The translations under genes and the position numbers were made by a program. Positions 1,955 through 51,043 of a stretch of 62,542 bases of DNA are shown here, piece after piece. The stretch is from Acidimicrobiaceae bacterium (GTDB lineage: Bacteria > Actinomycetota > Acidimicrobiia > Acidimicrobiales > Acidimicrobiaceae). Position 1 is the stretch's first letter; every line of letters begins with the position of its first letter. The DNA lies in assembly GCA_013044385.1 (NCBI GenBank), contig JABEUN010000043.1, positions 1-62,542 of the forward strand, in the 5' to 3' direction. The notes below the pieces were generated by a model, which was not told the origin of the DNA, did no database searches, and saw only the letters and a program-made list of their open reading frames with translations.

Positions 1955-3136
1955 CTAACTACAAAGTGATCTGGCGATAATTTTGCCGACCTTTTCGTAC
2001 TCCACGAGGAAGCCGTCGTGGCCAATATCTGTTTCAACGACTTCGACCTCGGGCCGCGAGGGCAGGAGATCGGCAAGACTCTGCTGATGAGGAAGCGGAA
2101 AAAGTCGGTCTGAAGATATTCCCACTACGGTTACTTGTGATTTCACTCCGGCGAGTGCTGCTTTGGGGCCACCCCGTCCCCTGCCGATGTCGTGGTGGTT
2201 CATGCTCTGAGAAAGAACGATGTATGAGTTGGCATCGAACCTGGCCGCCAATTTCTTCCCATGGTGGTCAAGGTAGGACTCGACTGCGTAGAGGCCACCG
2301 TTGCGGGGATCTCGATCATCCTGTGGCTTGCGTCCGAATCGACGCTCCAACTCCTCTGATCCCCGGTAGCTGAGTTGCCCGAGCCCACGGGCGATGGCGA
2401 GACCTTCAGCGGGGGCCACTCCGAAACGTTGATAGTCTCCCCCGAAGTAGTTCGGGTCGTTCTTGATCGCCCGAATCTGTAGTGAGCTCAAGGCAATCTG
2501 TTCTGGTGACGCAGAGCATCCGACCGCTAGAACCACCGCCGTATCAACCATGTTCGGTTCCATACACAGCCATTCGATGGACCGCATGCCTCCCATCGAT
2601 CCGCCTATGACTGCCGCCCAAGCGCGAATTCCTAGCATCTGGGCGAGCCGAAGTTCTGCTCTGACTTGATCTCTGACCGTGATAAGCGGGAACCTCGATC
2701 CGTAAGGGAGGCCGTCAGGCGCAGTTGAGGACGGACCGGTGCTTCCTCTGCAGCCGCCGAGGACATTTGGACATATGACGAAGTAGCGATCGGTATCTAT
2801 AGGTCTGCCTGGCCCAATCAACTCCTGCCACCAACCGCGTTCTATCTCATCACTGTTACCGTTCGTGGCGTGGGAGTCACCGGTGAGTGCATGAAGAATT
2901 AGCACGGCGTTCGATGCAGAAGGATTGAATGTTCCCCAAGTCTCAAAGGCCAGTCTGATCGAACCTAAGGTCAGGCCACCTTCGGTGCGAAATTCATCTA
3001 CGCCGAAGATTTCGATGACTTGTGCTGCATCTCTGAGAGGAGGGGCGACCGCCCCTCCTCTCAGAATCGGCTCAGCCGTGCTTTGCTGCACGGAATCCAG
3101 CATCCAAGTCGGCGAGTATGTCATCGAGGGTCTCAA
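1955..3136 (-). CDS. metX: homoserine O-acetyltransferase MetX
   Basis: Transfers acetyl from acetyl-CoA to homoserine, the activation step that feeds MetY in methionine synthesis. It is an alpha/beta hydrolase-fold enzyme: nucleophile Ser180 in GGSMGG, Asp in ISSDRLFP and His in GHDGFLVE near the C-terminus, plus family motifs LTGDSH, NVLGGCRGSTGPSS and SRFPLITVRDQV. The start is uncertain. The longest frame begins at a TTG and overlaps metY by 65 nt; ATG at 3124 or 3103 and GTG at 3091 are alternatives, none with a strong ribosome site. No start codon exists between the palindrome at 3033-3064 and the conserved core, so the palindrome is translated (residues about 25-35). Probably translationally coupled to metY. 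Confidence 0.95.
   Translation of the reverse strand: MRPSMTYSPTWMLDSVQQSTAEPILRGGAVAPPLRDAAQVIEIFGVDEFRTEGGLTLGSIRLAFETWGTFNPSASNAVLILHALTGDSHATNGNSDEIERGWWQELIGPGRPIDTDRYFVICPNVLGGCRGSTGPSSTAPDGLPYGSRFPLITVRDQVRAELRLAQMLGIRAWAAVIGGSMGGMRSIEWLCMEPNMVDTAVVLAVGCSASPEQIALSSLQIRAIKNDPNYFGGDYQRFGVAPAEGLAIARGLGQLSYRGSEELERRFGRKPQDDRDPRNGGLYAVESYLDHHGKKLAARFDANSYIVLSQSMNHHDIGRGRGGPKAALAGVKSQVTVVGISSDRLFPLPHQQSLADLLPSRPEVEVVETDIGHDGFLVEYEKVGKIIARSLCS
3033..3064. repeat. perfect 32-bp inverted repeat inside metX
   Basis: Two 15-nt arms, CTGAGAGGAGGGGCG and its exact complement, flank a 2-nt centre. It begins 8 nt after the metY stop and lies in frame in the metX N-terminus, where it encodes a peptide that is itself nearly palindromic (LRGGAVAPPLR). 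The transcript could fold into a very stable hairpin between metY and the body of metX. No U-run follows, so it is not a classical terminator. It could set the metY/metX ratio, protect the metY mRNA end, or be a small inserted palindromic element. Confidence 0.8.
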
Positions 3137-4370
3137 TTCCTATGCAGAGCCTGATCAGGTCGTCCGTTACACCGGTGTCTGCCTTCTCGACCGTTGAGAG
3201 CTGGGAATGCGTCGTTGAGGCAGGATGGATGGCCAAGCTCCTAACGTCGCCGACGTTGGCGAGATGACTGAACAGCTCGAGGCCCTCTATGAAACTCCGT
3301 CCGGCATCGCCGCCTCCTTTGATTCCGAATCCAATGATCGCTCCTGTACCCTTTGGAAGGTATTTCAACTGGCGATCGTGCCACTTGCTGGAGGGGAGGC
3401 CCGCGTAGGAGACCCAGCTGACCTCGTCCCTGCTTTCCAGCCATGTTGCGACTGCTAGGGCGTTCTGTACATGGCGCTCCATCCGAAGGCTGAGTGTCTC
3501 CAACCCCTGGATAAATAGGAACGAGTTGAATGGAGTTGTAGCCGCCCCTACATCTCTCATGTACTGGAGTCTTGCCTTCAGAACATATCGTGCCTGAAAA
3601 AGCGGCTCAGGTAGCTCGGAAAAGACCAGTCCGTGGTAGCTCGGATCCGGTTCAGTGAAGTTAGCAAATCGACCGCTAGATTCGTAATTGAAAGTTCCAC
3701 CGTCGACGATAATTCCTCCAATAGATGTGCCGTGGCCTCCTATGAATTTTGTGGCCGAGTGAATTACTATGTCGGCACCATGTCTAAGTGGCTGTGCAAG
3801 GTATGGAGTTGCGAGGGTATTGTCGACCACCAGTGGAATTCCATTTTCGTGTGCCACCTTCGATACCGCTTCCAGATCGAGAATGTCTCCACGAGGGTTA
3901 CCTATTGTCTCGGCGAAGAATGCTCTTGTGTTGGGTCGAATCGCAGAGCGCCACTCCTCTAGGTTCTCTGCATCTTTTACAAATGTGGTAGTAATGCCGA
4001 GCTTTGGCAGCGTGTTCTGTAGGAGGTTGTAGGTTCCCCCATAAAGCGATGAGGAGGCAACGATGTGTCCTCCGTTCTCGGCAAGGTTCAAGAGGGCAAT
4101 TGTCTCGGCAGCTTGCCCGCTCGCAGTCGCAAGTGCCGCAACGCCACCCTCGAGCGCCGCGATTCTCTCCTCGAAAACCGCCTGAGTTGGATTCATGATC
4201 CTGGTGTAGATATTCCCCAACTCTTCCAATCCGAACAGTGCTGCAGCATGCGCAGTGTCCCTAAAGACGTAGCTGGAGGTCTGATAGATCGGAACCGCGC
4301 GGGCTCCTGTGGTCGGATCGGGTACTGCTCCGGCGTGCACTTGACGTGTTTCGAATCCCCACTGGGACAT
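3072..4370 (-). CDS. metY: O-acetylhomoserine sulfhydrylase MetY
   Basis: PLP enzyme of the Cys/Met metabolism family that makes homocysteine from O-acetylhomoserine and sulfide. The PLP lysine is Lys208 in HSATKFIGGHG, with Tyr56 (YTRIMNPT), Asp183 (VVDNTLATP) and the GQAAE loop at 85-89 visible. At 432 residues it is of the longer MetY type rather than the 380-400-residue MetB/MetC type. The ATG start is preceded by GGAG at a 6-nt spacing. It is the first gene of a metY-metX unit and has an unusually long upstream region that may hold a regulatory RNA. Confidence 0.95.
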   Translation of the reverse strand: MSQWGFETRQVHAGAVPDPTTGARAVPIYQTSSYVFRDTAHAAALFGLEELGNIYTRIMNPTQAVFEERIAALEGGVAALATASGQAAETIALLNLAENGGHIVASSSLYGGTYNLLQNTLPKLGITTTFVKDAENLEEWRSAIRPNTRAFFAETIGNPRGDILDLEAVSKVAHENGIPLVVDNTLATPYLAQPLRHGADIVIHSATKFIGGHGTSIGGIIVDGGTFNYESSGRFANFTEPDPSYHGLVFSELPEPLFQARYVLKARLQYMRDVGAATTPFNSFLFIQGLETLSLRMERHVQNALAVATWLESRDEVSWVSYAGLPSSKWHDRQLKYLPKGTGAIIGFGIKGGGDAGRSFIEGLELFSHLANVGDVRSLAIHPASTTHSQLSTVEKADTGVTDDLIRLCIGIETLDDILADLDAGFRAAKHG

Positions 4371-4870: not shown

Positions 4871-4955
4871 AGAGCCTCCCAAATAGTCTGGGAAACCCCT
4901 TCGACGACGGCCGAGGTTTCCCGCCTTGTCGATCTGATCCGATCGACCTGCTCTT

Positions 4956-5007
4956 CCTCCGGTGGCACCGTCTTGCGGGAGCGGTTGCCATTTCGCCATG
5001 CCGGAGG
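4956..5007 (-). promoter_or_regulatory. candidate structured leader RNA, SAM-riboswitch-like core
   Basis: On the metY strand, CCTCCGG (5007-5001) pairs perfectly with CCGGAGG (4962-4956). Inside is a second stem, TGGC.ACCG with CGGT.GCCA, carrying the strings GGCAACC and GGTGCC. In S-box and SAM-IV RNAs GGCAACC and GGUGC form the ligand-binding core, and metY is a classical SAM-riboswitch target in actinobacteria. However, the kink-turn/pseudoknot half of the S-box is not evident and the distance to metY (about 590 nt) is long. It may be a degenerate or variant element, or a chance match. Confidence 0.3.
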
Positions 5008-5307
5008 GCTTAGGACGAAATTCTTGAGCGCTTTCGATGCTAATCCGGATGTAGTTTGAGTCCGGTCAGTCTGGGATGAAAAACTGGCCTAGATTAGTTC
5101 GATTCTCTGGCGATTGCTGGCGGCTGCGGGCAGGTCAAATGTGAGACTTAGTGCGGGCCGAGGTTGCAACTTTCCGGCGATAATTAAGCAGGTGTTAGGT
5201 CCACATGTAGTTGCTCAGTTTGCGGTGAGGGTAATCTTCCAAAGGTCACCATATGTCTGTACGAGTTGACCACACGGTGGCGGGATTAGCTAGATAGCAT
5301 CAACTGA

Positions 5308-24558: not shown

Positions 24559-26688
24559 TCAGCTACTCCGAGCCTGGAGAATTAGGGAAATCAACTCTTC
24601 TGCAAGCACTGTGGCGAGCCAGCTGCGGTCGCCAATGAGTTGTACAATACTGTCTGGATGTTCTGGAGGTTGCTCGACTAGGAGTCGAATCGAGCTGTCA
24701 CTCAGTAAAGTCTGTGGCGAAAGGCCGAGTAGTGTCGACCGCTGTCTCCTCCAGGTCTCTAGTCGTACCTTGACGAGGCTCTCCGTGTTGCTGGGACCGT
24801 CCAATCTTGTCCTGGCTTGCCGTATCGCCATCTGACCGAAGGTGGTTCCAATGGAATTTGTGGCTGTTACAGCCGCTGGAACCTGCGTCTTTAGCCGAAG
24901 TGGAGCCAGGTATCGGGACTGGGTTCGCTCGAGCAGTGACTGCCCAACCCGTCTCTGTTTGCAGTAGCTCAATTCGAGATTGTTGCGGGCACGAGTCATC
25001 GCTACGTACATGAGTCGGGCCTCTTCCTCTAAGCGGTCCGGGGTCGTTGATTGATAGTGGGGGACGGAACCCTCCTCCAAACCAACGACAAAGACCGTAC
25101 TCCACTCGAGTCCCTTGGCCTTGTGGAAGCTGCAGAGCGAGACCGAGTTACGAGTGTTGAAATGGTCCACAGAGTTGTAGATCCGATCTGAGAGCTGGGA
25201 GATATTCCCGTTAGGATCGGCTCGACGAACGCTGTGTGCGAGTGCGAGAACGAGTTCCAGTGAGCTGTCCCATTTCGACTTCACGAACTTTCCTGGATTA
25301 GAAAGTAGGGTGTCTCCCGAATTTGGATCAGGCGATATCCCAGCTTCTAGTTCATCGCAAGCGTCCGAGATCGACAGCTCAGCGCCTCTTGAATTGAGGA
25401 TGGAGACGATGGTTATCACCTCCTCCATTTCAGATAAGTTGGAGGAGTTCGGTGAATTGTGACCCACGCCATGCGAGCTGAGTTGATCGGCTATGGGGAC
25501 AAGCTGGGAGTTTGTTCGTGCAAGTACTGCAATCGAACTGGGTGGGCTCCCGGCTGATACTAGATCTCTTATCCGCCTAGCAACCATCTCCGCTTCATCA
25601 GCATCGGTTTGATACTCGGTGGTGCGAGGATAGCTTCCACCGGACCTAAATGCTACGACTTGTTGCAGCTTCGATGCCGAGCCGAGGTCCAGCGTTCCCG
25701 CCGCTTGAAGTATCTCTGGAGTGGATCGATAATTGGTAGTCAGCTGCACTACTTTGGAATTGGGGAAGTGCGCGTGGAAATTCAGGATCAGACCTGGATC
25801 TGACCCATTCCAAGCGAAGATTGACTGTCGTGGATCACCCACTACACACAGAGCCGCCTGGTCCGAAGTCATGGCCTTTAACAAGCGCAACTGTGCAGGG
25901 TTGATGTCCTGAAACTCGTCCACATAGATTTCCCGGTGTAGCCAGTTGAATGCCGACCTGAACCGGTAGTCTGACTCGAGCAGCCGTGAGGTCTCTTCAA
26001 TCAGGTCATCGAGATCATAAAGACCAGAACGTCTTTTGAGGCGCTGGTATTCGGCATAGATGAGTGCCACGGAGTGTAGTTCGATCTTCGGTGCGGACTT
26101 CTGGTTGAATGTAGGTGTGGAGTTAAGCCTCACTGCCGCAGCTGCTGATGTCATGTAGTTTTCGGGATCCAAGTCGACCGCTCTCGCCCACTCGATCTCT
26201 GCCGCAATCGCGCGAAGACTCCGGTAGGAGCCGTGACTGTCTGGTACCTTGCCCGAGCGTATTAGATCGAGAGTTGCAGCCTTCAGCAGGCCAAGTTTGC
26301 TGTCGGTGACTTTCGGTGGGCGGACTTGTCGATCATCTGACCAGTTCTTGAGTACCGAAAGGGCGAAGGAGTGGAATGTCGCGCATTCGATCTGTTCGCC
26401 ATCGAGTGATCGATTTAGTCTGTCACGGAGCTCTTGGGCTGCGTTTCTTGTGAATGTAATTGCTACCACTCGAGGCGAGGGGACGATGCCATTTTCAACT
26501 CGGTGGGCGATCCTTGCGGCCATGACACGGGTCTTGCCGGATCCTGCACCTGCAATAATGCATAACCGGAGCGAAGGATCCACAACCGCATTTAGTTGCT
26601 CTTCGCTGAGCCCTGACACTAGTTTAGGGGAGCGGATTTCGATGGACATTTCTATCAGATCGTAGGTTGACGATGTGACAACGTCCAC
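24559..26688 (-). CDS. UvrD2-like superfamily 1 DNA helicase with HRDC tail
   Basis: ATP-dependent 3'-5' DNA helicase, 709 residues. Walker A is GAGSGKT (47-53), motif II YVDEFQD at about 263-269, motif III GDPRQSIFAWNGS, and later HKAKGLEW and YVAMTRARNNL. The last 75 residues (LETWRRQRSTLLGL...) match an HRDC domain, as in mycobacterial UvrD2. UvrD2 also carries a four-cysteine motif before the HRDC; only one Cys (SYCKQRR) is left here. The first codon is GTG at 26688, only 9 nt after the stop of the extended radical SAM frame. Confidence 0.92.
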   Translation of the reverse strand: MDVVTSSTYDLIEMSIEIRSPKLVSGLSEEQLNAVVDPSLRLCIIAGAGSGKTRVMAARIAHRVENGIVPSPRVVAITFTRNAAQELRDRLNRSLDGEQIECATFHSFALSVLKNWSDDRQVRPPKVTDSKLGLLKAATLDLIRSGKVPDSHGSYRSLRAIAAEIEWARAVDLDPENYMTSAAAAVRLNSTPTFNQKSAPKIELHSVALIYAEYQRLKRRSGLYDLDDLIEETSRLLESDYRFRSAFNWLHREIYVDEFQDINPAQLRLLKAMTSDQAALCVVGDPRQSIFAWNGSDPGLILNFHAHFPNSKVVQLTTNYRSTPEILQAAGTLDLGSASKLQQVVAFRSGGSYPRTTEYQTDADEAEMVARRIRDLVSAGSPPSSIAVLARTNSQLVPIADQLSSHGVGHNSPNSSNLSEMEEVITIVSILNSRGAELSISDACDELEAGISPDPNSGDTLLSNPGKFVKSKWDSSLELVLALAHSVRRADPNGNISQLSDRIYNSVDHFNTRNSVSLCSFHKAKGLEWSTVFVVGLEEGSVPHYQSTTPDRLEEEARLMYVAMTRARNNLELSYCKQRRVGQSLLERTQSRYLAPLRLKTQVPAAVTATNSIGTTFGQMAIRQARTRLDGPSNTESLVKVRLETWRRQRSTLLGLSPQTLLSDSSIRLLVEQPPEHPDSIVQLIGDRSWLATVLAEELISLILQARSS

Positions 26689-26697
26689 CGCTCGGTA

Positions 26698-28200
26698 CTA
26701 CTCACTGCCCAGTAGGTGCTGTAAGGGATCCAACTGGTCCCGACGTGGTTCGCTTCAACAGAACCAGGGTTCAGCTAGTTTCGTAGAACTCAGTATCGTT
26801 GTCCCACGAGTAATAGCTGGTGGTACCTGGTCTATGAATTGGTACGCGATGTGCCGAATCGCGTGCAAGGTCTCTACATTGGACTGCTTGGCATAGGTCG
26901 CCTCCTCGGCCAGAGATGCCACTTTGATTGCAAGCTCGTCGATGCGCCGGTCGGAATGTTGCCATTGATACCCCATTGTGGTCGGGTCATAATCAAGGAT
27001 TTCGAAGTCTCTGTTTTCGGAGGACAGAAGAAGTGATCCGGGTGGCAAAAGGAGCCTTATCCCAAACTGGACCGGTTCTACAACCTCTTCGAGTCCGAAG
27101 TGGTAGCAGTAGTCGACGATGTCAGCGAGATCTCGATTCGTGGTCCATGGGGTGAATGGCAGGAACGATGGGTGGAGGGTGATGCCAAGTTTCTGCACGA
27201 TCTCGGTGGCTTCGTATGCCTGCTCAGCGGTGTGACCCTTGTCGAGCCTGCTAAGAACCTCGTCATTCAGAGATTCGACTGCCGAGGTGATCATCGAACA
27301 TCCTGAAGCGGCCATCTTCTCGATGAGGACGGGGTATTTCAAGATGTGTTCCACCTTGATAGTCGCATCAAAGCTGATCTCCTCGGAGGACAACGCGCCA
27401 AGCCCTTCGATTATTTTGGACGCATGAATCGGAGCATTCAGAAAGTCAGGGTCTCCGAAGGTTATATGAGTAGCACCTTGATCGAGAAGGCCCCGAATAT
27501 CGGTGAGGATGGTTTCGACCGGGTTGATTTGAATGCGGCCGTGGTAGGCGGTTGGGACGGGGCAGTGGAGGCAGGAGTGCCTGCAACCACGAGTACTCTC
27601 CACGTGTCCGACGAGTTTGTGGGCTCCATCAACGACTATTCCGGGATAGGCCGAAATAGGTGGGAGAGATGTCCGCTCGATGACCATATTTGTGGAGTGC
27701 CTTGACGGACGATTGGACGTGGCGCGGTGGTTGGACGGTAGTCCCGCGGCGAGCCACTCTTCTATAAGTGGGAGATACTCCCCGGTCATCGCAGCATCAA
27801 GATGCGGTATTGAGTCAGTTAGAACGATATCGGAGTAGAGGCCAAATGCCGCAATCTTGGCCACCTGATTCGCCTTTGAAATAGCCTTCACCAGTCTTTT
27901 TGCCATGGTTGCAGCTGTGAGCATGGGAGTGGAGAGGAGAAACAGGTCGGTATCGGCGAAAGCCTTTGTAAGGTCAGCGTAAGATCCTTCTGGCCAACCT
28001 AGGTCGTTGGAGGCCTGATGAAGCTGACGGTCCATGTCATCGGGAAGTGAGAGGTCCAGCACAGATACTCGGTGCCCCAAACTTTTAACGAGATTTTGAA
28101 CTTCAGCGACTGACTGCGGTTGCCGGCCCAGCTCGTAACTGGAGATGACAAGTACCTTCATCGGAGTACTAGTTTTGGTGTTATCAGTCACAGGCTTCAA
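26698..28200 (-). CDS. radical SAM protein with Cys-Sec-Ser-Glu-Pro tail, predicted selenoprotein
   Basis: The N-terminal 150 residues resemble a B12-binding-like Rossmann domain (start region VLVISSYELG). The radical SAM domain follows, with the 4Fe-4S cysteines in CRHSCLHC (Cys206, 210, 213). The first in-frame stop is TGA at 26757-26755, after the codons for PWFC. If TGA is read as Sec, the protein continues S-E-P and ends at TAG (26698), 500 residues in all. A family recalled as the CUAEP/CCAEP-tail radical SAM proteins ends in Cys-Sec-Ala-Glu-Pro or Cys-Cys-Ala-Glu-Pro, which fits closely. A hairpin at 26725-26741 is placed as a SECIS. The true start may be ATG at 28161. It overlaps the ATP-grasp gene. 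Sec is an inference; without it the CDS is 26755-28200. Confidence 0.8.
26725..26741 (-). promoter_or_regulatory. candidate bacterial SECIS hairpin
   Basis: On the coding strand GGGACCAGTTGGATCCC folds as GGGA/TCCC plus CC/GG with one bulged A, closed by an AGUU loop. It begins 14 nt and ends 30 nt after the TGA at 26757-26755. Bacterial SECIS elements are short hairpins with a G (often GU) early in a small apical loop, at about this distance, bound by SelB. Position and loop both fit. SECIS sequences are variable, so the match is supportive only. Confidence 0.6.
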
Positions 28201-29461
28201 CCCTGGCCATGGCGGTATTCGAGTCGTCGATGACAGGTTGTATGAGAGCTCTCGCTTCTCTTAACGCTCCCAGTACGGCTGACCTCCCTGGGCCCCTAGC
28301 GAAGACGAATCCAAGATAACGGTCCGCAAGCGGCACCGGGCGCAGGTAAGTTCCGACCGGTGTTGTCACATCGATCTCGGTTATGAACCTGACTCCCACC
28401 GCCTCCTGGACCCCTTGGACGCCGCGCAGAAAGCCCGTCATCGGGGTCGATAGCATCAATACTCCAGAGGCGCTCTTTTCTCGACCGCTCGGACCTTCAA
28501 GCTGTATGCCGAGTTGCGAGGCTAGGATCATCTCCTCAAGAGAACGACCGTTAGAGAAACGTACCGATCTTGAACATTTGCCACCAATACTCCGCGCTGC
28601 GATTTCGATAATGAATATCTCGCCGGAATTCCCGATCCTAACCTCGGCGTGGAAAGCCCCTGCGACCAAGTCCAAGTGACTTACTGCTTCGCTAACTGCT
28701 CCGTTTATCCGAGATGCCTGATCGTTGGTTAATTCTGCGGGCATGAGGTAGATCGACTCTTCGAAGTACGGGCCCTGCATCGGTTCTGGCTTGTCGAAGA
28801 TCACGAGTACGTGTGGTCCCAAAGCGTCTACGTACCCATCGACGGCGTATTCGGTTCCTGAGATGTACTGTTCGACCAGTATCTCTTTGGCAGTGGGATC
28901 GAAAAGTCTGTGCGCCTCGAGCAGGAGCTCCAACGAGGGAGCCACGTCTTGGTCCGAGTTGATTAAAATTACGCCTCTTGAACCTGAAAGCCGAGTTGGC
29001 TTGATTATCACCGGGAAGCCCCCGAGTTCGGCTGCTGAATTGCGTATGTGCTGCAGATCGACTTGCTCGATGTCCAGGATTACGAAGTCGGGTTGACGGA
29101 CTGATGAAGACTTGGAGAGAACCTCTCTCATCTTTGCCTTGTCGGTCGTCGTTTCTAGCGCAGCTAGAGGTATGGACCTCAGACCAGCGCTTTCGGCGGC
29201 TAGTGATGCAAGCTTAGAACCCTGATCGTCGACGCTTAGGATGGTTCCCGCCCGAAACTCCATGGCTGCGCGAGCTACTTGATTGACGGACTCATTCGAG
29301 TCAGAGAGATCACTCAGATGTACGGTTAGGGTTGGCTGGTTTACGACTGTCGGATCGGCATCTGTAATCACGAGAGTTTCGATTCCGAGCCGATCTGCTG
29401 CGATCATGAACTCGTTAGATCGATAACTGGCTTTGGGAAGTATTAGAGCGAGTCGATCCAT
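28184..29461 (-). CDS. ATP-grasp domain protein (carboxylate-amine ligase type)
   Basis: A 425-residue ATP-grasp enzyme. An N-terminal preATP-grasp Rossmann part (1-110) precedes the ATP-binding core: GFPVIIKPTRLSGSRGV, ILVEQYISGTEYAVDGYV and, near the end, FIIEIAARSIGGKCS with the Mg-binding acidic residue and Asn/Arg cluster region. Such enzymes join a carboxylate to an amine using ATP, as in amino acid ligases or peptide tailoring. Its stop overlaps the radical SAM gene by 17 nt, so the two are translated as a pair. The substrate is unknown. It diverges from the Nfu-type gene with a 47-bp promoter region. Confidence 0.88.
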   Translation of the reverse strand: MDRLALILPKASYRSNEFMIAADRLGIETLVITDADPTVVNQPTLTVHLSDLSDSNESVNQVARAAMEFRAGTILSVDDQGSKLASLAAESAGLRSIPLAALETTTDKAKMREVLSKSSSVRQPDFVILDIEQVDLQHIRNSAAELGGFPVIIKPTRLSGSRGVILINSDQDVAPSLELLLEAHRLFDPTAKEILVEQYISGTEYAVDGYVDALGPHVLVIFDKPEPMQGPYFEESIYLMPAELTNDQASRINGAVSEAVSHLDLVAGAFHAEVRIGNSGEIFIIEIAARSIGGKCSRSVRFSNGRSLEEMILASQLGIQLEGPSGREKSASGVLMLSTPMTGFLRGVQGVQEAVGVRFITEIDVTTPVGTYLRPVPLADRYLGFVFARGPGRSAVLGALREARALIQPVIDDSNTAMARVEACD

Positions 29462-29508: not shown

Positions 29509-30147
29509 GTGTCAGAGCTAAGTGAGTCAGACGTCCGGTTCAAGGTTAGCCCGGAGGCAGCTGAGGTCGTCAAAGGCGCTCTAAGGGACGAAGACGATTC
29601 GGAGTTCCTAGCGCTTTGGGTCGATATCAGTGGAGTCACAGGTGGAAACTTCGATTACGACGTGTACTTCGAGAGACTGAGTGACGCAGGGGCAGGTGAT
29701 TTCACATCTGAGTCTGAAGGCGTGGCGATTGTAATTCCTGAGGGTTCAATTGACAGGCTTATCGGTGCTAGCTTGGACGTCTCCGCTGACGGAGGTCTCG
29801 TGATCACCAATCCTAACTCGCCGTTGCCAGTCGGTGGTGACGTGCCTGATTTCGGTCCCGAGGCCCTTTCTTCGGATATCGCGCGACAGGTGCAGGCGAT
29901 CCTTCAAGAGGAGATCAATCCTTCGATTGCATCTCACGGCGGACGGGCTGACTTGGTGGGTGTTGTCGAGGACGTGGTTTATGTCGTTCTCTCTGGTGGA
30001 TGTCAAGGGTGTGGAATGGCCAGTGTTACCCTTTCGCAGGGTATCGAAGTGTCTATCAAGGAGGCTATTCCCTCGATAGTTGCAGTGCGGGATGTGACGG
30101 ACCACATGTCAGGTTCCAATCCCTATTACGCTGCGGCGAAGAAGTAA
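29509..30147 (+). CDS. Fe-S biogenesis protein, NfuA-like (A-type-like plus NifU domain)
   Basis: A 212-residue protein in two parts: residues 1-105 resemble an A-type (IscA/HesB) scaffold but without its three cysteines, as in NfuA; residues 118-200 are a NifU C-terminal domain with the cluster motif GGCQGCGM (Cys165, Cys168). It should assemble or deliver [4Fe-4S] clusters. GTG start at 29509. It is divergent from the ATP-grasp/radical SAM unit, and could supply clusters to the radical SAM protein, although Nfu proteins serve many targets. Confidence 0.88.
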   Translation: MSELSESDVRFKVSPEAAEVVKGALRDEDDSEFLALWVDISGVTGGNFDYDVYFERLSDAGAGDFTSESEGVAIVIPEGSIDRLIGASLDVSADGGLVITNPNSPLPVGGDVPDFGPEALSSDIARQVQAILQEEINPSIASHGGRADLVGVVEDVVYVVLSGGCQGCGMASVTLSQGIEVSIKEAIPSIVAVRDVTDHMSGSNPYYAAAKK

Positions 30148-31430: not shown

Positions 31431-33272
31431 TCAGCCTGGTGCAACCGTCGTAGACGTTGTTGAGGTGGTAGTAGTGGTGGTCGTAGCTGGAAGCGTGGTG
31501 GACGTGGTTGTCGATCCTACGACGCTGGTCGTGGTGGTAGATCGAGCCACGGGTACCGTCGTCGTTGTCTCGCCAGGGTACGTGGTGGTGGTCACCTGAG
31601 CAAGCGTGGTCGACGTTGTCGACGATGTAGACGTTGTGGTAGTCGTAGTGACAGGTGTCAGTGGTCCTACAGGTGGATGTGCAAGGACCTCGGAAGCATT
31701 GGCTACTGCAGGGTGAATCCTTCCTGATGGGCCAGATCCGAAGGCGGAGAGAATGTTCTGGGTGATTGTAACTACAGGGGCGATCGGACAACCTTGAAGG
31801 ACCGGTACGCAGACCGACGTGGAAAGCGCTGCGACCCACAGATTGGTACCCGTCGCAAACACTCCGGCTCCTGAAGCGGCAACGTAGTAGGTCATGTCTG
31901 AGAAGTACGGTACATTCCTACACAGCACTGGAGAATGTGCGAGTATTTGCACGCCAGCTGGAGTTGGGTACTGCGGATCGTACGCGTCGAACTCACTTCC
32001 GACAAGATTCGGGATTCTGGAGAGGTACGAGAGGTTCGAATTGGCAAATACCCAGCTCGAGGGGTCGGTTATCACCATCGGATAGTGGACTGGGTTGCAT
32101 TGGTACTGTATGCCAATCAAGGATGACTCGGGCTGCGCATCTGGAAAGCTGGGCCAATTTGCCGTAACTAGGGCATTGTTCTTTCCGAACAATGGATCCA
32201 AGTATGGGTTTCGGTAGTTCACTTCGATTCGATATGGTCCAAGTGGAGAGGATTCGAATCGAATACGCCGGAAGATTGCGTTTGCACCTAAGAACATCAG
32301 GTTGGTCCCGCTATGTAGTGCCGAAGTGAGCGCCGCGCGCATACCAGGGGAGTAGTACTCGTCATGGCCGAGCGACAAGATGGCGGAATGGTTTAGTACC
32401 GAGCCTGGGTACTCTTGGAGATCAACGTCCGTAACGTAGCTTACATTCAATCCCATGCGTTCTACGAGGCTTACCAGTGGCAGTTCATTTCCAATGAAGT
32501 CCGCTGCGCCTTGTCCAAACGTGTAGGCGTATGGCCTGTCGAATGAAACCTTGGTAGCCCTTGAGCTGGCTCCAGTCGGTCCTAAGTACAGGCTGTAACC
32601 CCCGTAAGTGTTGTACGCCTCCCACGTGGTGACGGAGTTGATGACCAGGTAGGCCGAGTTCGAATTTACCTGCTTAATCGTGATCGGAATGTAACTCTGC
32701 TGGTGCCCCGTCCCGGTGAGCAGCAGGAGGTAATCACCGGGGAACCAATTCTGGTTTGTGTGAATTGTAAGCGATGGTCGCCAACTGCACTCGACAGTGT
32801 TATTTGCTGGTGTGACGGGGCATGAAGGCTGATTTAATCCCTTGATAGTAGGGGATTGCCAGACCATCCTGGCAAGGTCGCCGCCGTACCAGCCCATGCG
32901 GTATGCCGTCACATTGAAGTTCGGTTCGATCGTGGAAACATAGATTTTGAAGCTGCCGCCTGCAAATATGCTCACCGTCGATGCATATCCGCTGATTGAG
33001 TTGCGGATCTGGGGTCCTGAGATTCTCCAACTAGTGGTGCCTGGCCTAAGATTCTCGGCTCTTATTGCAGCTGAAAGTGCTGGGCCCGGTCCGAGGCTGG
33101 AGTTTTCGATTGTAGTCGTCGTTATCGATCCGGGTTGAACTGTCGTAGTGGTTGTGGGGTTTAGGTTGGCTGAGCCCGTTCGATTTGCTGCAATGGCAAG
33201 GCCGATGCCGGAGATTCCCATTAGGAAACCTATGACTACGAGTATTCTTTTCCCGCTGAACCAGTTCAGCAT
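31431..33272 (-). CDS. membrane-anchored N,N-dimethylformamidase beta-subunit-like protein with Thr-rich tail
   Basis: A 613-residue surface protein: short basic N-terminus, one membrane helix or signal anchor (about 9-29), a Thr-rich linker, a large domain from about 65 to 545, then a Thr/Ser tail (about 555-613) of TTTT and TST repeats. The domain resembles the C-terminal part of the N,N-dimethylformamidase large subunit (YRMGWYGG, SWRPSLTIHTNQNWFPGDYLL, LGHDEYYSPGMR, LMFLGANA). Some members are amidases, but others are uncharacterised, so activity is unsure. The tail is typical of wall-spanning or glycosylated regions in this window. Confidence 0.75.
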   Translation of the reverse strand: MLNWFSGKRILVVIGFLMGISGIGLAIAANRTGSANLNPTTTTTVQPGSITTTTIENSSLGPGPALSAAIRAENLRPGTTSWRISGPQIRNSISGYASTVSIFAGGSFKIYVSTIEPNFNVTAYRMGWYGGDLARMVWQSPTIKGLNQPSCPVTPANNTVECSWRPSLTIHTNQNWFPGDYLLLLTGTGHQQSYIPITIKQVNSNSAYLVINSVTTWEAYNTYGGYSLYLGPTGASSRATKVSFDRPYAYTFGQGAADFIGNELPLVSLVERMGLNVSYVTDVDLQEYPGSVLNHSAILSLGHDEYYSPGMRAALTSALHSGTNLMFLGANAIFRRIRFESSPLGPYRIEVNYRNPYLDPLFGKNNALVTANWPSFPDAQPESSLIGIQYQCNPVHYPMVITDPSSWVFANSNLSYLSRIPNLVGSEFDAYDPQYPTPAGVQILAHSPVLCRNVPYFSDMTYYVAASGAGVFATGTNLWVAALSTSVCVPVLQGCPIAPVVTITQNILSAFGSGPSGRIHPAVANASEVLAHPPVGPLTPVTTTTTTSTSSTTSTTLAQVTTTTYPGETTTTVPVARSTTTTSVVGSTTTSTTLPATTTTTTTSTTSTTVAPG

Positions 33273-48393: not shown

Positions 48394-50334
48394 GTGGCAA
48401 TTGATATGTCTCAAACGACCGGTGTCGGTCGTGGAGGCTCGAGTGAGGGTGGGGGGTTGAAAAAGGGACCCAAGCTGAACGCGTTTACTGGCGTTTTAGT
48501 TGGTGCCCTTGGATACCTCTTCGGTCACTGGATGGGCAACGCAATCGCTGGTGGGTACCAGCAAGTTGTGGGTTCCGGACAGAATGACACCGCCATACTC
48601 TTGGGCTTCATTTTTGGAACTATAGGCTTCTTCTTGGGCCTCGGTATCTTGAACTACCCGTTGCAGAAAATGACTGGTATCGAGCCACCGACTGATGAGC
48701 CCGAGCAGGCACAGGGCATGATGAAGTACTTCCGGTACACCTTGGACAACAAGGTGGTTGGAATTCAGTACCTCTTCGGAATGCTCGTGTACTTCTTTAC
48801 GGCTGGTCTGCTCGCGATGGCGATCCGTACACAGCTGCTTTCGCCCACCAATCACATCTGGGGTCCAGCGACCTATCTTGAGGTGGTTGGCGAGCACGGA
48901 ACCATGATGATGATGATGATGACCTCGGTCGTGATGGGTCCATTTGGTAACTTTCTAGTGCCGCTTATGATCGGTTCGAAGAGAGTTGCCTTCCCAAGGC
49001 TTGAGGCCGCAGCATTCTGGTTTACGCCAGCTGCTTACATCATCTTGCTCTCTGCGCTTTGGCAGGGCGGATTCCAGTCCGGATGGACTGGCTATGCACC
49101 GCTCTCCATCCAGCAGGGTGTTGGGCAGGATGCCTATCTGTTCAGCTTCGGTCTCCTCGGCTTCTCGATGATCTGTTCGGCGTTGAATATGACCGCTACG
49201 ATCATTAATTACCGGGCTCCCGGTATGCGCTGGAGTCGACTACCGATGCTGGCGTGGGGAATGATCACGGTTGCATTCACCATGTTGTTGTCTGTTCCGG
49301 TACTGATTGTGGGACTCTACGTGATGGCCCTTGACAGGTCTGCACAGACATCCATGCTCTATGCGGGGCACGGAGGAAGTTCATTCCTCTGGGAGAATCT
49401 CTTCTGGTTCTTCGGGCATCCCGAGGTGTATTTGCTGGCGTTACCTGGATTCGGTGTCGTTACCGAGATCCTGCCAGTATTTGCAAGGAAGCCTCTGTTC
49501 GCATATAAGACTTCGGTTGCTGGAATGATCGGTGTTGCCGTACTGAGCTTCTTTGTTTGGCAGCATCACCTGTTCCAGAGTGGAATGAATCCAGACATGC
49601 GTCCGCTCTTCATGCTCACCACTGAGTTGATCTCGATTCCTACGGGTTTCTTGTACTTGGTCGGTATGGGTACGATGTGGAGATCTCGCATGAGGTTCGA
49701 CGTCCCGATGCTGTTCGTAATGGCGGTGTTCTTCAACTTCCTGTTCGGTGGCATTACCGGGGTGTACGTCTCTGACGTGCCGATCAACGTGACTGTGCAT
49801 GGAAGCTACTTCGTTATGGCGCACTTCCATTACACGATCATGGGTCAGTTGATGTTCTCAGTAATGGCTGCGATCTACTACTACACGCCTCTTTACTTCG
49901 GGATCAAACTCAGTGAGAAGCTTGGCAAGATTCATTTCTGGACAATGTTCATAGCGTTCAACTCAACCTTCCTTCCGCTCTTCGCGTTAGGTCTGTTGGG
50001 TATGCCAAGGCGTGTATTCGAATACGCACAGAGGCTTCAGCACTTGAATCAATGGGTGTCTGTCTCTGCCTTTATACTCGGTCTATCGTTGGCCTTCTTC
50101 GCCGTGACCTTCGTGTGGCAGCTTGCTGTCAGTAAGCCGAAGAGTCCCCCGAATCCGTGGGAGTCGAGGGGACTGGAGTGGCAGGTTGGATATCCGGTGC
50201 CTCATGGCAACTTCGCCAAGATCCCGGTGATCCTAGCTGGTCCATACGAGTACGGTGATCCGAATGCACTACCTGTAGCTGAGCTTTCAGCAGTTGGAGC
50301 GCATAGCGCGTCCGTTTCAGGGGGTGATGAGTAA
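48394..50334 (+). CDS. ctaD: cytochrome c oxidase subunit I
   Basis: Haem-copper oxidase catalytic subunit, 646 residues. Haem and copper ligands: His168 (GEHGT), His342 and the cross-linking Tyr346 (GHPEVY), His391/392 (QHHLFQSGM), His477 and His479 (AHFHY). It has two extra hydrophobic segments in a 110-residue N-terminal extension. At the K-channel position the usual IKIF is FLYL (Leu420), and the Asp after His of HDTYY is Gly (VHGSYF). The six-Met run after GEHGT is striking. GTG start after GGAGGG. It overlaps the subunit III start by 1 nt. Confidence 0.96.
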   Translation: MAIDMSQTTGVGRGGSSEGGGLKKGPKLNAFTGVLVGALGYLFGHWMGNAIAGGYQQVVGSGQNDTAILLGFIFGTIGFFLGLGILNYPLQKMTGIEPPTDEPEQAQGMMKYFRYTLDNKVVGIQYLFGMLVYFFTAGLLAMAIRTQLLSPTNHIWGPATYLEVVGEHGTMMMMMMTSVVMGPFGNFLVPLMIGSKRVAFPRLEAAAFWFTPAAYIILLSALWQGGFQSGWTGYAPLSIQQGVGQDAYLFSFGLLGFSMICSALNMTATIINYRAPGMRWSRLPMLAWGMITVAFTMLLSVPVLIVGLYVMALDRSAQTSMLYAGHGGSSFLWENLFWFFGHPEVYLLALPGFGVVTEILPVFARKPLFAYKTSVAGMIGVAVLSFFVWQHHLFQSGMNPDMRPLFMLTTELISIPTGFLYLVGMGTMWRSRMRFDVPMLFVMAVFFNFLFGGITGVYVSDVPINVTVHGSYFVMAHFHYTIMGQLMFSVMAAIYYYTPLYFGIKLSEKLGKIHFWTMFIAFNSTFLPLFALGLLGMPRRVFEYAQRLQHLNQWVSVSAFILGLSLAFFAVTFVWQLAVSKPKSPPNPWESRGLEWQVGYPVPHGNFAKIPVILAGPYEYGDPNALPVAELSAVGAHSASVSGGDE

Positions 50335-50984
50335 TGAGTAACGCAGTTGACGATCAGACGACAGTGGATGAGGAGCAGTATTACCATGATGCACAGTTAG
50401 GTGCTATCTGGTCTGCTTCAAGAACCCTCATCGCGGTCATATCTACGCTGTTTGGCGGACTTCTGTTTGCCTACTTCTACCTGAGGTCTCTGAATTCTCA
50501 CGGACTTTGGGATCCCAATAACCTGAAGGCGTCGTTCCTTATGGGTACGGTGATCACGGTATTTGTGGTAGCCAGCGCTGTCATTGTCCAAGTTGCCAAC
50601 AGGCGGCTCCGTAAGGGCCTCACTTTTGACTGGCAGGTTGGTAGCGGTGTTGCCCTGGGTCTCGGTGTTTTGGCTGGTCTCTTCCAGATTTGGGAGATGA
50701 CCAGGCTTCCATTCCTCCCGGGACAATCCGGCTATGCGGGAATCTATGTGGCCAGCGGTCCGGTTTATGCCATAGTTGTGCTTGGTAGCATGTACTGGCT
50801 TGAAACACTTCTGGCCCGTTCGATTAGATCCCGTAAGGCAGCTATGCAGGACGGCGGAATAGGCGTCTCTAAGCAGCCAAGTGCTGAGAATTTCAGAGCT
50901 TCTCTGGATGGCTTCACCGTTTACTGGACCTACTTCTCGGCTATCAGTATTGTGCTCTGGTACCTCCTGTATGTCCTTAAGTAG
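50334..50984 (+). CDS. ctaE: cytochrome c oxidase subunit III
   Basis: A 216-residue subunit with five hydrophobic segments, like the shortened subunit III of many bacteria. The N-terminal YYHDAQLGAIWSASRT precedes FGGLLFAYFYLRS, and the conserved Glu is in FQIWEMTRLPF. It stabilises the oxidase and its D-channel. ATG within TAATG shared with the subunit I stop. Last clear core subunit; a 40-residue membrane ORF follows. Confidence 0.9.
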   Translation: MSNAVDDQTTVDEEQYYHDAQLGAIWSASRTLIAVISTLFGGLLFAYFYLRSLNSHGLWDPNNLKASFLMGTVITVFVVASAVIVQVANRRLRKGLTFDWQVGSGVALGLGVLAGLFQIWEMTRLPFLPGQSGYAGIYVASGPVYAIVVLGSMYWLETLLARSIRSRKAAMQDGGIGVSKQPSAENFRASLDGFTVYWTYFSAISIVLWYLLYVLK

Positions 50985-51014
50985 GACGTAAAGGATTTTA
51001 TTGAGATCGTCTCA

Positions 51015-51043
51015 TCGGAGCGGAAGAGAACCTTCCGCTCCGA
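51015..51043 (+). terminator. 12-bp hairpin after subunit III
   Basis: TCGGAGCGGAAG and its exact complement flank a 5-nt loop, 30 nt after the ctaE stop. No U-run follows. It may end most oxidase transcripts or set the level of the small downstream ORF. Confidence 0.55.

Follow-up and report, generated by a model that had tools for sequence, protein, structure and literature searches.

An in-frame TGA near the 3′ end of a radical SAM gene from an Acidimicrobiaceae bacterium is very probably read as selenocysteine within a conserved Cys-Sec/Cys tail

The window, that is, the whole stretch of 62,542 nucleotides analyzed here, carries on its minus strand a radical SAM gene whose in-frame TGA (26757–26755) is very likely decoded as selenocysteine (Sec). 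Such decoding would yield a radical SAM enzyme of 487 residues that carries Cys468-Sec469-Ser-Glu-Pro in its C-terminal tail, and the read-through protein is almost certainly 19 residues longer than the one that routine annotation would give. The initial annotation had proposed Sec at this codon, a proposal that is supported by the TGA column in alignments, the conserved extension behind it, a hairpin, and the Sec machinery of the genome. Sec insertion itself is what we infer from these computed features, namely the frame, the column, the hairpin with its covariation among relatives, the machinery, and two other genes predicted to encode selenoproteins.

The minus-strand frame reads ...SSTKLAEPWFC, of which the last codon is TGT (26760–26758), followed by the TGA, 18 sense codons (SEPRRDQLDPLQHLLGSE), and a TAG (26700–26698); this is exactly the ...PWFC-TGA-SEP reading, over 26698–26760, that had been claimed from the letters. 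Relatives align from MKVLVISSYELG, which corresponds to the ATG at 28161, and the start of the gene was therefore set there; judged by this alignment, the TTG at 28200, which had been listed as the start, probably does not serve as one. The PF04055 match (Pfam) spans residues 188–351 of the protein. The features of the locus are collected in Table 1.

Table 1. Positions of the features discussed, numbered along the window.
Feature	Position	Strand	Remarks
Predicted radical SAM selenoprotein gene	26698..28161	−	487 codons including Sec, plus TAG; ATG 28161 to TAG 26698; PF04055; NF040546 on read-through
CxxxCxxC radical SAM [4Fe-4S] motif (C193, C197, C200)	27562..27585	−	Invariant in alignments of 16 and 59 sequences
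In-frame TGA, very probably Sec; residue 469 from ATG 28161	26755..26757	−	Column Cys or TGA in all homologs
Predicted Cys-Sec-Ser-Glu-Pro tail and 15 further residues before TAG	26698..26760	−	Read from the frame
Putative bacterial SECIS-type hairpin, GGGACC-AGUU-GG(A)UCCC	26725..26741	−	nt 17–33, loop AGUU at nt 23–26
ATP-grasp ligase, PF13535 + LAL_C2 (L-amino-acid-ligase C-terminal domain)	28184..29461	−	Directly upstream, overlapping the upstream end of the radical SAM open frame; conserved partner
Nfu/NifU-type Fe-S carrier (NfuA-like)	29509..30147	+	Divergently transcribed; conserved partner
UvrD/PcrA-like helicase	24559..26688	−	Downstream; start GTG 26688 or ATG 26649; neighbor mainly in the own family

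The spacing to the downstream helicase gene had also been put forward in favor of read-through. The distances are arithmetically right (66 nt from the TGA, and 9 nt from the TAG, to the GTG at 26688), but they are not strong evidence, because the helicase may in fact start at the ATG at 26649 (MSIEIRSP...). That start, which fits the start of a neighboring helicase such as the one behind locus L013, leaves a gap of 48 nt after the TAG. With the helicase start uncertain between the two codons, we set aside gene order, with its 9-nt gap, as an argument.

Homology continues past the TGA. Against the NCBIfam model NF040546, the score rises from 389.3 bits for a protein ended at the TGA to 407.2 bits for the read-through protein, with the match reaching profile position 467 of 468, and the residues after the TGA align to the invariant tail in all sequences of both alignments (16/16 and 59/59). 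Among the 59 aligned proteins, which come from many phyla, the invariant tail positions are E464, W466, C468, C469, E471, and P472 (the display writes the TGA position as C469), and no cysteines are invariant other than C193, C197, and C200 of the radical SAM motif and the C468–C469 pair. Since C469, E471, and P472 are invariant, a protein stopped at the TGA would lack some of its most strongly conserved positions. Automatic annotation would end it there, as the initial annotation had warned, and would drop residues that rank among the best conserved of the family.

Over approximately 100 homologs, the TGA column holds Cys in 77 and TGA in 24 (own gene counted), and nothing else. The C-terminus alignment that had been suggested as a check thus finds Cys or Sec in every homolog read, together with a conserved extension. 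All 22 relatives from the order and family have Cys at this column, including the congener G002, whose tail reads WFCCAEPRSDQL as compared with WFCUSEPRRDQL in the protein studied here, in which Sec would replace a Cys shared by the congener and every family relative read. The initial annotation had drawn attention to Ser in place of Ala after the pair; Ser is indeed present in this tail but is not peculiar to it. The 78 other loci readable in GTDB comprise 49 with CCAEP, 22 with CUAEP, six with CCSEP, and one with CUSEP, and CCSEP is also found in the family relative G005. Because CCSEP or CUSEP tails occur elsewhere (also in L047 and L076, both of which score above the NF040546 cut-off), Ser at this position is an ordinary variant.

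Downstream of the TGA lies a hairpin of the bacterial SECIS type (Table 1; the U of UGA is counted as nt 1). In the mRNA, this hairpin, starting 13 nt past the UGA, would recruit SelB carrying Sec-tRNA(UCA). The loop is AGUU or AGGU at exactly nt 23–26 in 23/23 other TGA homologs, and a stem of at least six pairs is found at the site in 21 of these 23, as compared with 5/55 Cys loci from GTDB and 1/22 Cys relatives; the Cys-form congener lacks the hairpin, as do nearly all family relatives. Across 22 TGA homologs, five of the six stem pairs vary on both sides with pairing kept (20 cells vs 6.6 expected), and covariation amounts to 0.457 as compared with 0.217 after shuffling, slid controls being far lower. 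Folded alone, the own hairpin is no more stable than shuffled sequences (z about −0.2 to −0.7), and the case for a SECIS element was therefore built on position, loop, and covariation in relatives. A covariance model trained on the 22 TGA homologs with the own sequence left out ranked the own site third in the window (9.7 bits), in the exact register 17–41, but this model is too short to be specific, and across the genome many chance sites rank higher.

The initial annotation had proposed searching the genome for selA, selB, tRNA-Sec, and selD, all of which are present. The tRNA-Sec gene, on contig C41, scores 69.9 bits with Rfam (gathering score 47) and is called as tRNA-SeC with anticodon UCA by ARAGORN. 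Contig C27 carries selA (317–370 bits) with selB beside it, the latter recognized from the translated sequence (HVDHGKSS... GTPase motif) and not by a profile, and contig C9 carries selD (344 bits). Two further genes on contig C9 are predicted to encode selenoproteins by their in-frame TGA: selD itself (50094–51029; locus L041), where the TGA falls at the GxGU site (...SHGAGUACKL), and the gene for the formate dehydrogenase alpha subunit FdhA (75099–76967; locus L146), where it lies in a classical context (...NRTUHAPSV). The UGA of the FdhA gene is followed by a hairpin of its own, with GU at nt 23–24 and a geometry much like that of the radical SAM hairpin. Together with the radical SAM gene, there are therefore three genes in this one genome (G000) with a TGA exactly where Sec is expected.

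The ArsA-like protein encoded next to selAB is 65 to 67% identical to those of three congeners and at most 56% identical to those of other genomes, and the tetranucleotide correlation between the sel contigs and the contig of the window (about 0.84–0.93) is like that of other own contigs among themselves. Hence, identity and composition agree in assigning the sel contigs to this genome. An ArsA-like gene also lies approximately 6 kb from selA in three further genomes of the order, which suggests an old synteny; in the congener G001, the contig ends at the selAB site. Within the family, selA was found above cut-off in 2/24 genomes, namely the own genome and G020, in line with the Cys tails of the other members. 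The idea that Cys-tail genomes lack the Sec machinery holds within the family but not widely, and it was not taken as proof: in a wider set, selA was found in 19/23 Sec-tail as compared with 14/23 Cys-tail genomes, so that the link between Sec tail and selA is one-way and some of the draft genomes are incomplete.

A tree built from 101 proteins requires at least 10 changes between Sec and Cys. Sec forms occur, for example, in the cultured species Ktedonobacter racemifer (L096) and Ktedonosporobacter rubrisoli (L046). The protein studied here is sister to the Cys protein of G002 and is the sole Sec form in a clade of 16 members. Such a Sec form, isolated in a Cys-using clade, makes with the Cys congener a naturally occurring Sec/Cys pair in which the benefit of selenium to a radical SAM enzyme can be studied. 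Three Cys forms from Thermogemmatispora (L051, L053, and L061) are nested among Sec forms, and at least two of these, L051 (30.6 bits against the SECIS model) and L061, retain a sequence resembling a SECIS element after the Cys codon, as if left over from a recent replacement of Sec by Cys.

Because there is one genome of this species, with the sole Sec form in the 16-row clade, a nonsense mutation or a base-call error at the TGA is conceivable. We consider it very improbable that the TGA is a true stop, created by a recent Cys-to-stop mutation that cut off 19 residues and left the downstream homology as a fading remnant. A single base change (TGC or TGT to TGA) would suffice for this, the close relatives all have Cys, and the own hairpin is average in stability, yet the downstream frame keeps SEP as well as a Gln matching the conserved Gln476, and the AGUU-loop hairpin, absent from the congener, stands at the exact position seen in the TGA homologs. 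A stop would, moreover, remove the invariant second Cys/Sec of the tail and the Glu-Pro, in a genome that has the entire Sec machinery and two selenoprotein genes of classical type. Even less probable is a sequencing or assembly error that hides a TGC or TGT codon and an ordinary CCSEP protein; while this is a single draft genome with Cys neighbors, an error would neither make a SECIS hairpin in register nor account for the gene's presence among the few family genomes with selA (2/24 above cut-off). Under either alternative, the hairpin, the preserved tail, and the machinery would all be there by coincidence, and we retain Sec as the reading of the codon.

Two genes next to the radical SAM gene are conserved partners in several phyla. 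Within 4 kb, an ATP-grasp gene is found at 35/70 loci and Nfu/HesB-type carriers at 24/70, both occurring together at 18/70. A gene for a YggX-type Fe(II)-trafficking protein (PF04362) adjoins the radical SAM gene at nine of the 70 loci (e.g., L051, L058, L088, and L104), a further link of the family to iron, and LipA/LipB-like genes, named from their sequences, are adjacent at several Chloroflexota loci. The UvrD/PcrA-like helicase probably has no functional link to the radical SAM gene. The conserved ATP-grasp and Fe-S-carrier neighbors offer a tangible lead on a family already named by NCBI. Elsewhere in the window, a SAM-IV riboswitch (4917–5029, minus strand; 57.5 bits with Rfam) lies upstream of genes resembling those for O-acetylhomoserine sulfhydrylase (3072–4370) and homoserine acetyltransferase (1955–3136), which were named by eye, an arrangement of ordinary methionine control. 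The minus strand of 31431–33272 encodes a protein predicted to be secreted, the C-terminus of which is a long stretch of low complexity rich in Thr (TTTTT/TTST repeats).

Apart from the radical SAM motif, the radical SAM protein has no conserved thiol other than the vicinal Cys-Sec/Cys pair, which suggests that the tail is an arm for binding a substrate or metalloid or for redox chemistry. With moderate confidence, we regard Cys-Sec as an internal thiol/selenol pair that would sit at the active site. Its functional role is judged from gene context and distant kinship. The tail would most likely bind a thiophilic substrate, for example, a metalloid, or act as a selenosulfide redox relay; the metalloid idea is drawn by analogy from kinship to ArsL, which transfers the 3-amino-3-carboxypropyl group of SAM to arsenite. 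The neighboring ATP-grasp amino-acid ligase would then act on the product of the radical SAM enzyme, and the Nfu/HesB-type carriers would supply or restore the Fe-S cluster. It is possible, although somewhat unlikely, that the Cys-Sec enzyme, the ligase, and the dedicated carriers make up an as yet undescribed pathway shared across phyla: a metalloid or another thiophilic substrate would be held by the tail during transfer of a SAM-derived group at the radical SAM center, and the ligase would convert the product into a peptide-like metabolite.

That the tail serves as a redox relay (selenosulfide/diselenide, as in the tails of thioredoxin reductases) and not as a substrate-binding pair is a real, if tentative, possibility. 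A vicinal Cys-Sec near the C-terminus resembles such relays in form, and the repeated interchange of Sec and Cys on the tree (at least 10 changes) is as expected of a reactive thiol/selenol. Against this, no reductase partner is conserved beside the gene, and the closest characterized relative in profile searches, ArsL (236 bits, below cut-off), has arsenite as its substrate (PMC8552651). Ligation of an auxiliary Fe-S cluster by the tail, with Nfu/HesB proteins rebuilding the cluster at each turnover as NfuA does for LipA, would accord with the carriers at 24/70 loci, YggX at 9/70, and the LipA/LipB-like genes beside several Chloroflexota loci. Only C468 and C469 are conserved outside CxxxCxxC, however, too few for the three or four protein ligands of a usual cluster, and the second of these is often Sec. 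With no other conserved thiol/selenol pair beyond the core motif, the protein is unlikely to hold an auxiliary cluster bound by three or four Cys. We favor a pair engaged in thiophilic-substrate binding or in a redox step.

The closest described family is NF040546 (rSAM_CUAEP, “CUAEP/CCAEP-tail radical SAM (seleno)protein”), which bears out the mention in the initial annotation of a radical SAM family ending in Cys-Sec- or Cys-Cys-Ala-Glu-Pro; the Cys-Sec/Cys tails of such proteins have thus already been named by NCBI. The curated cut-off of 500 bits is reached neither by the protein studied here (407.2) nor by its congener (429.8), and an E value of 1e-150 to the model is passed by 52 of the 59 aligned proteins but not by the own protein. 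Since 407 bits falls below the cut-off of 500, the protein is best called a divergent relative of the CUAEP/CCAEP-tail family and not a formal member by the NCBI cut-off. In the literature searched for CUAEP, CCAEP, and NF040546, we found no paper naming the family. Two reviews of the prokaryotic selenoproteome, as searched for radical SAM proteins, name TIGR04167 and, in the later review, also TrsS, the CUAEP family not being among the radical SAM selenoproteins named there.

NF040546 is the best-scoring family and is matched over nearly the whole length of the protein. The likeness includes the CxxxCxxC radical SAM core, the vicinal Cys-Sec/Cys followed by Glu-Pro, and the interchange of Sec and Cys at the same column; in the tail, C-U-S-E-P keeps the Cys, Sec, Glu, and Pro of C-(U/C)-A-E-P. 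The protein differs in having Ser for Ala (as do a few members), in its 18 residues after Sec, and in belonging to a mostly-Cys actinobacterial clade. The second-best family is that of ArsL (NF040542, rSAM_RCCLKC; arsinothricin biosynthesis; 236 bits), which shares the radical SAM core and, going by the family name, a motif with a Cys pair, but the protein lies below its cut-off of 450 bits and lacks an RCCLKC tail. Unlike in the ArsL context, neither arsM nor arsQ was seen among the conserved neighbor clusters examined.

The predicted structure (pLDDT 91.6) consists of an N-terminal α/β domain and a radical SAM barrel, a fold that resembles the cobalamin-type radical SAM enzymes OxsB, TsrM, MgmA, and AprD4 (Foldseek E values of 1e-15 to 1e-13); MiaB is also among the structural neighbors. 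Identity to the four cobalamin-type enzymes is approximately 15 to 16%, and although the fold neighbors include B12 enzymes, the protein has no B12-binding match in Pfam. Bacterial FdhA and SelD, both of which are encoded in the same genome, are unrelated proteins whose UGAs are not near the C-terminus, but they share with the radical SAM gene a UGA with an adjacent downstream hairpin and the predicted decoding by SelB and tRNA-Sec.
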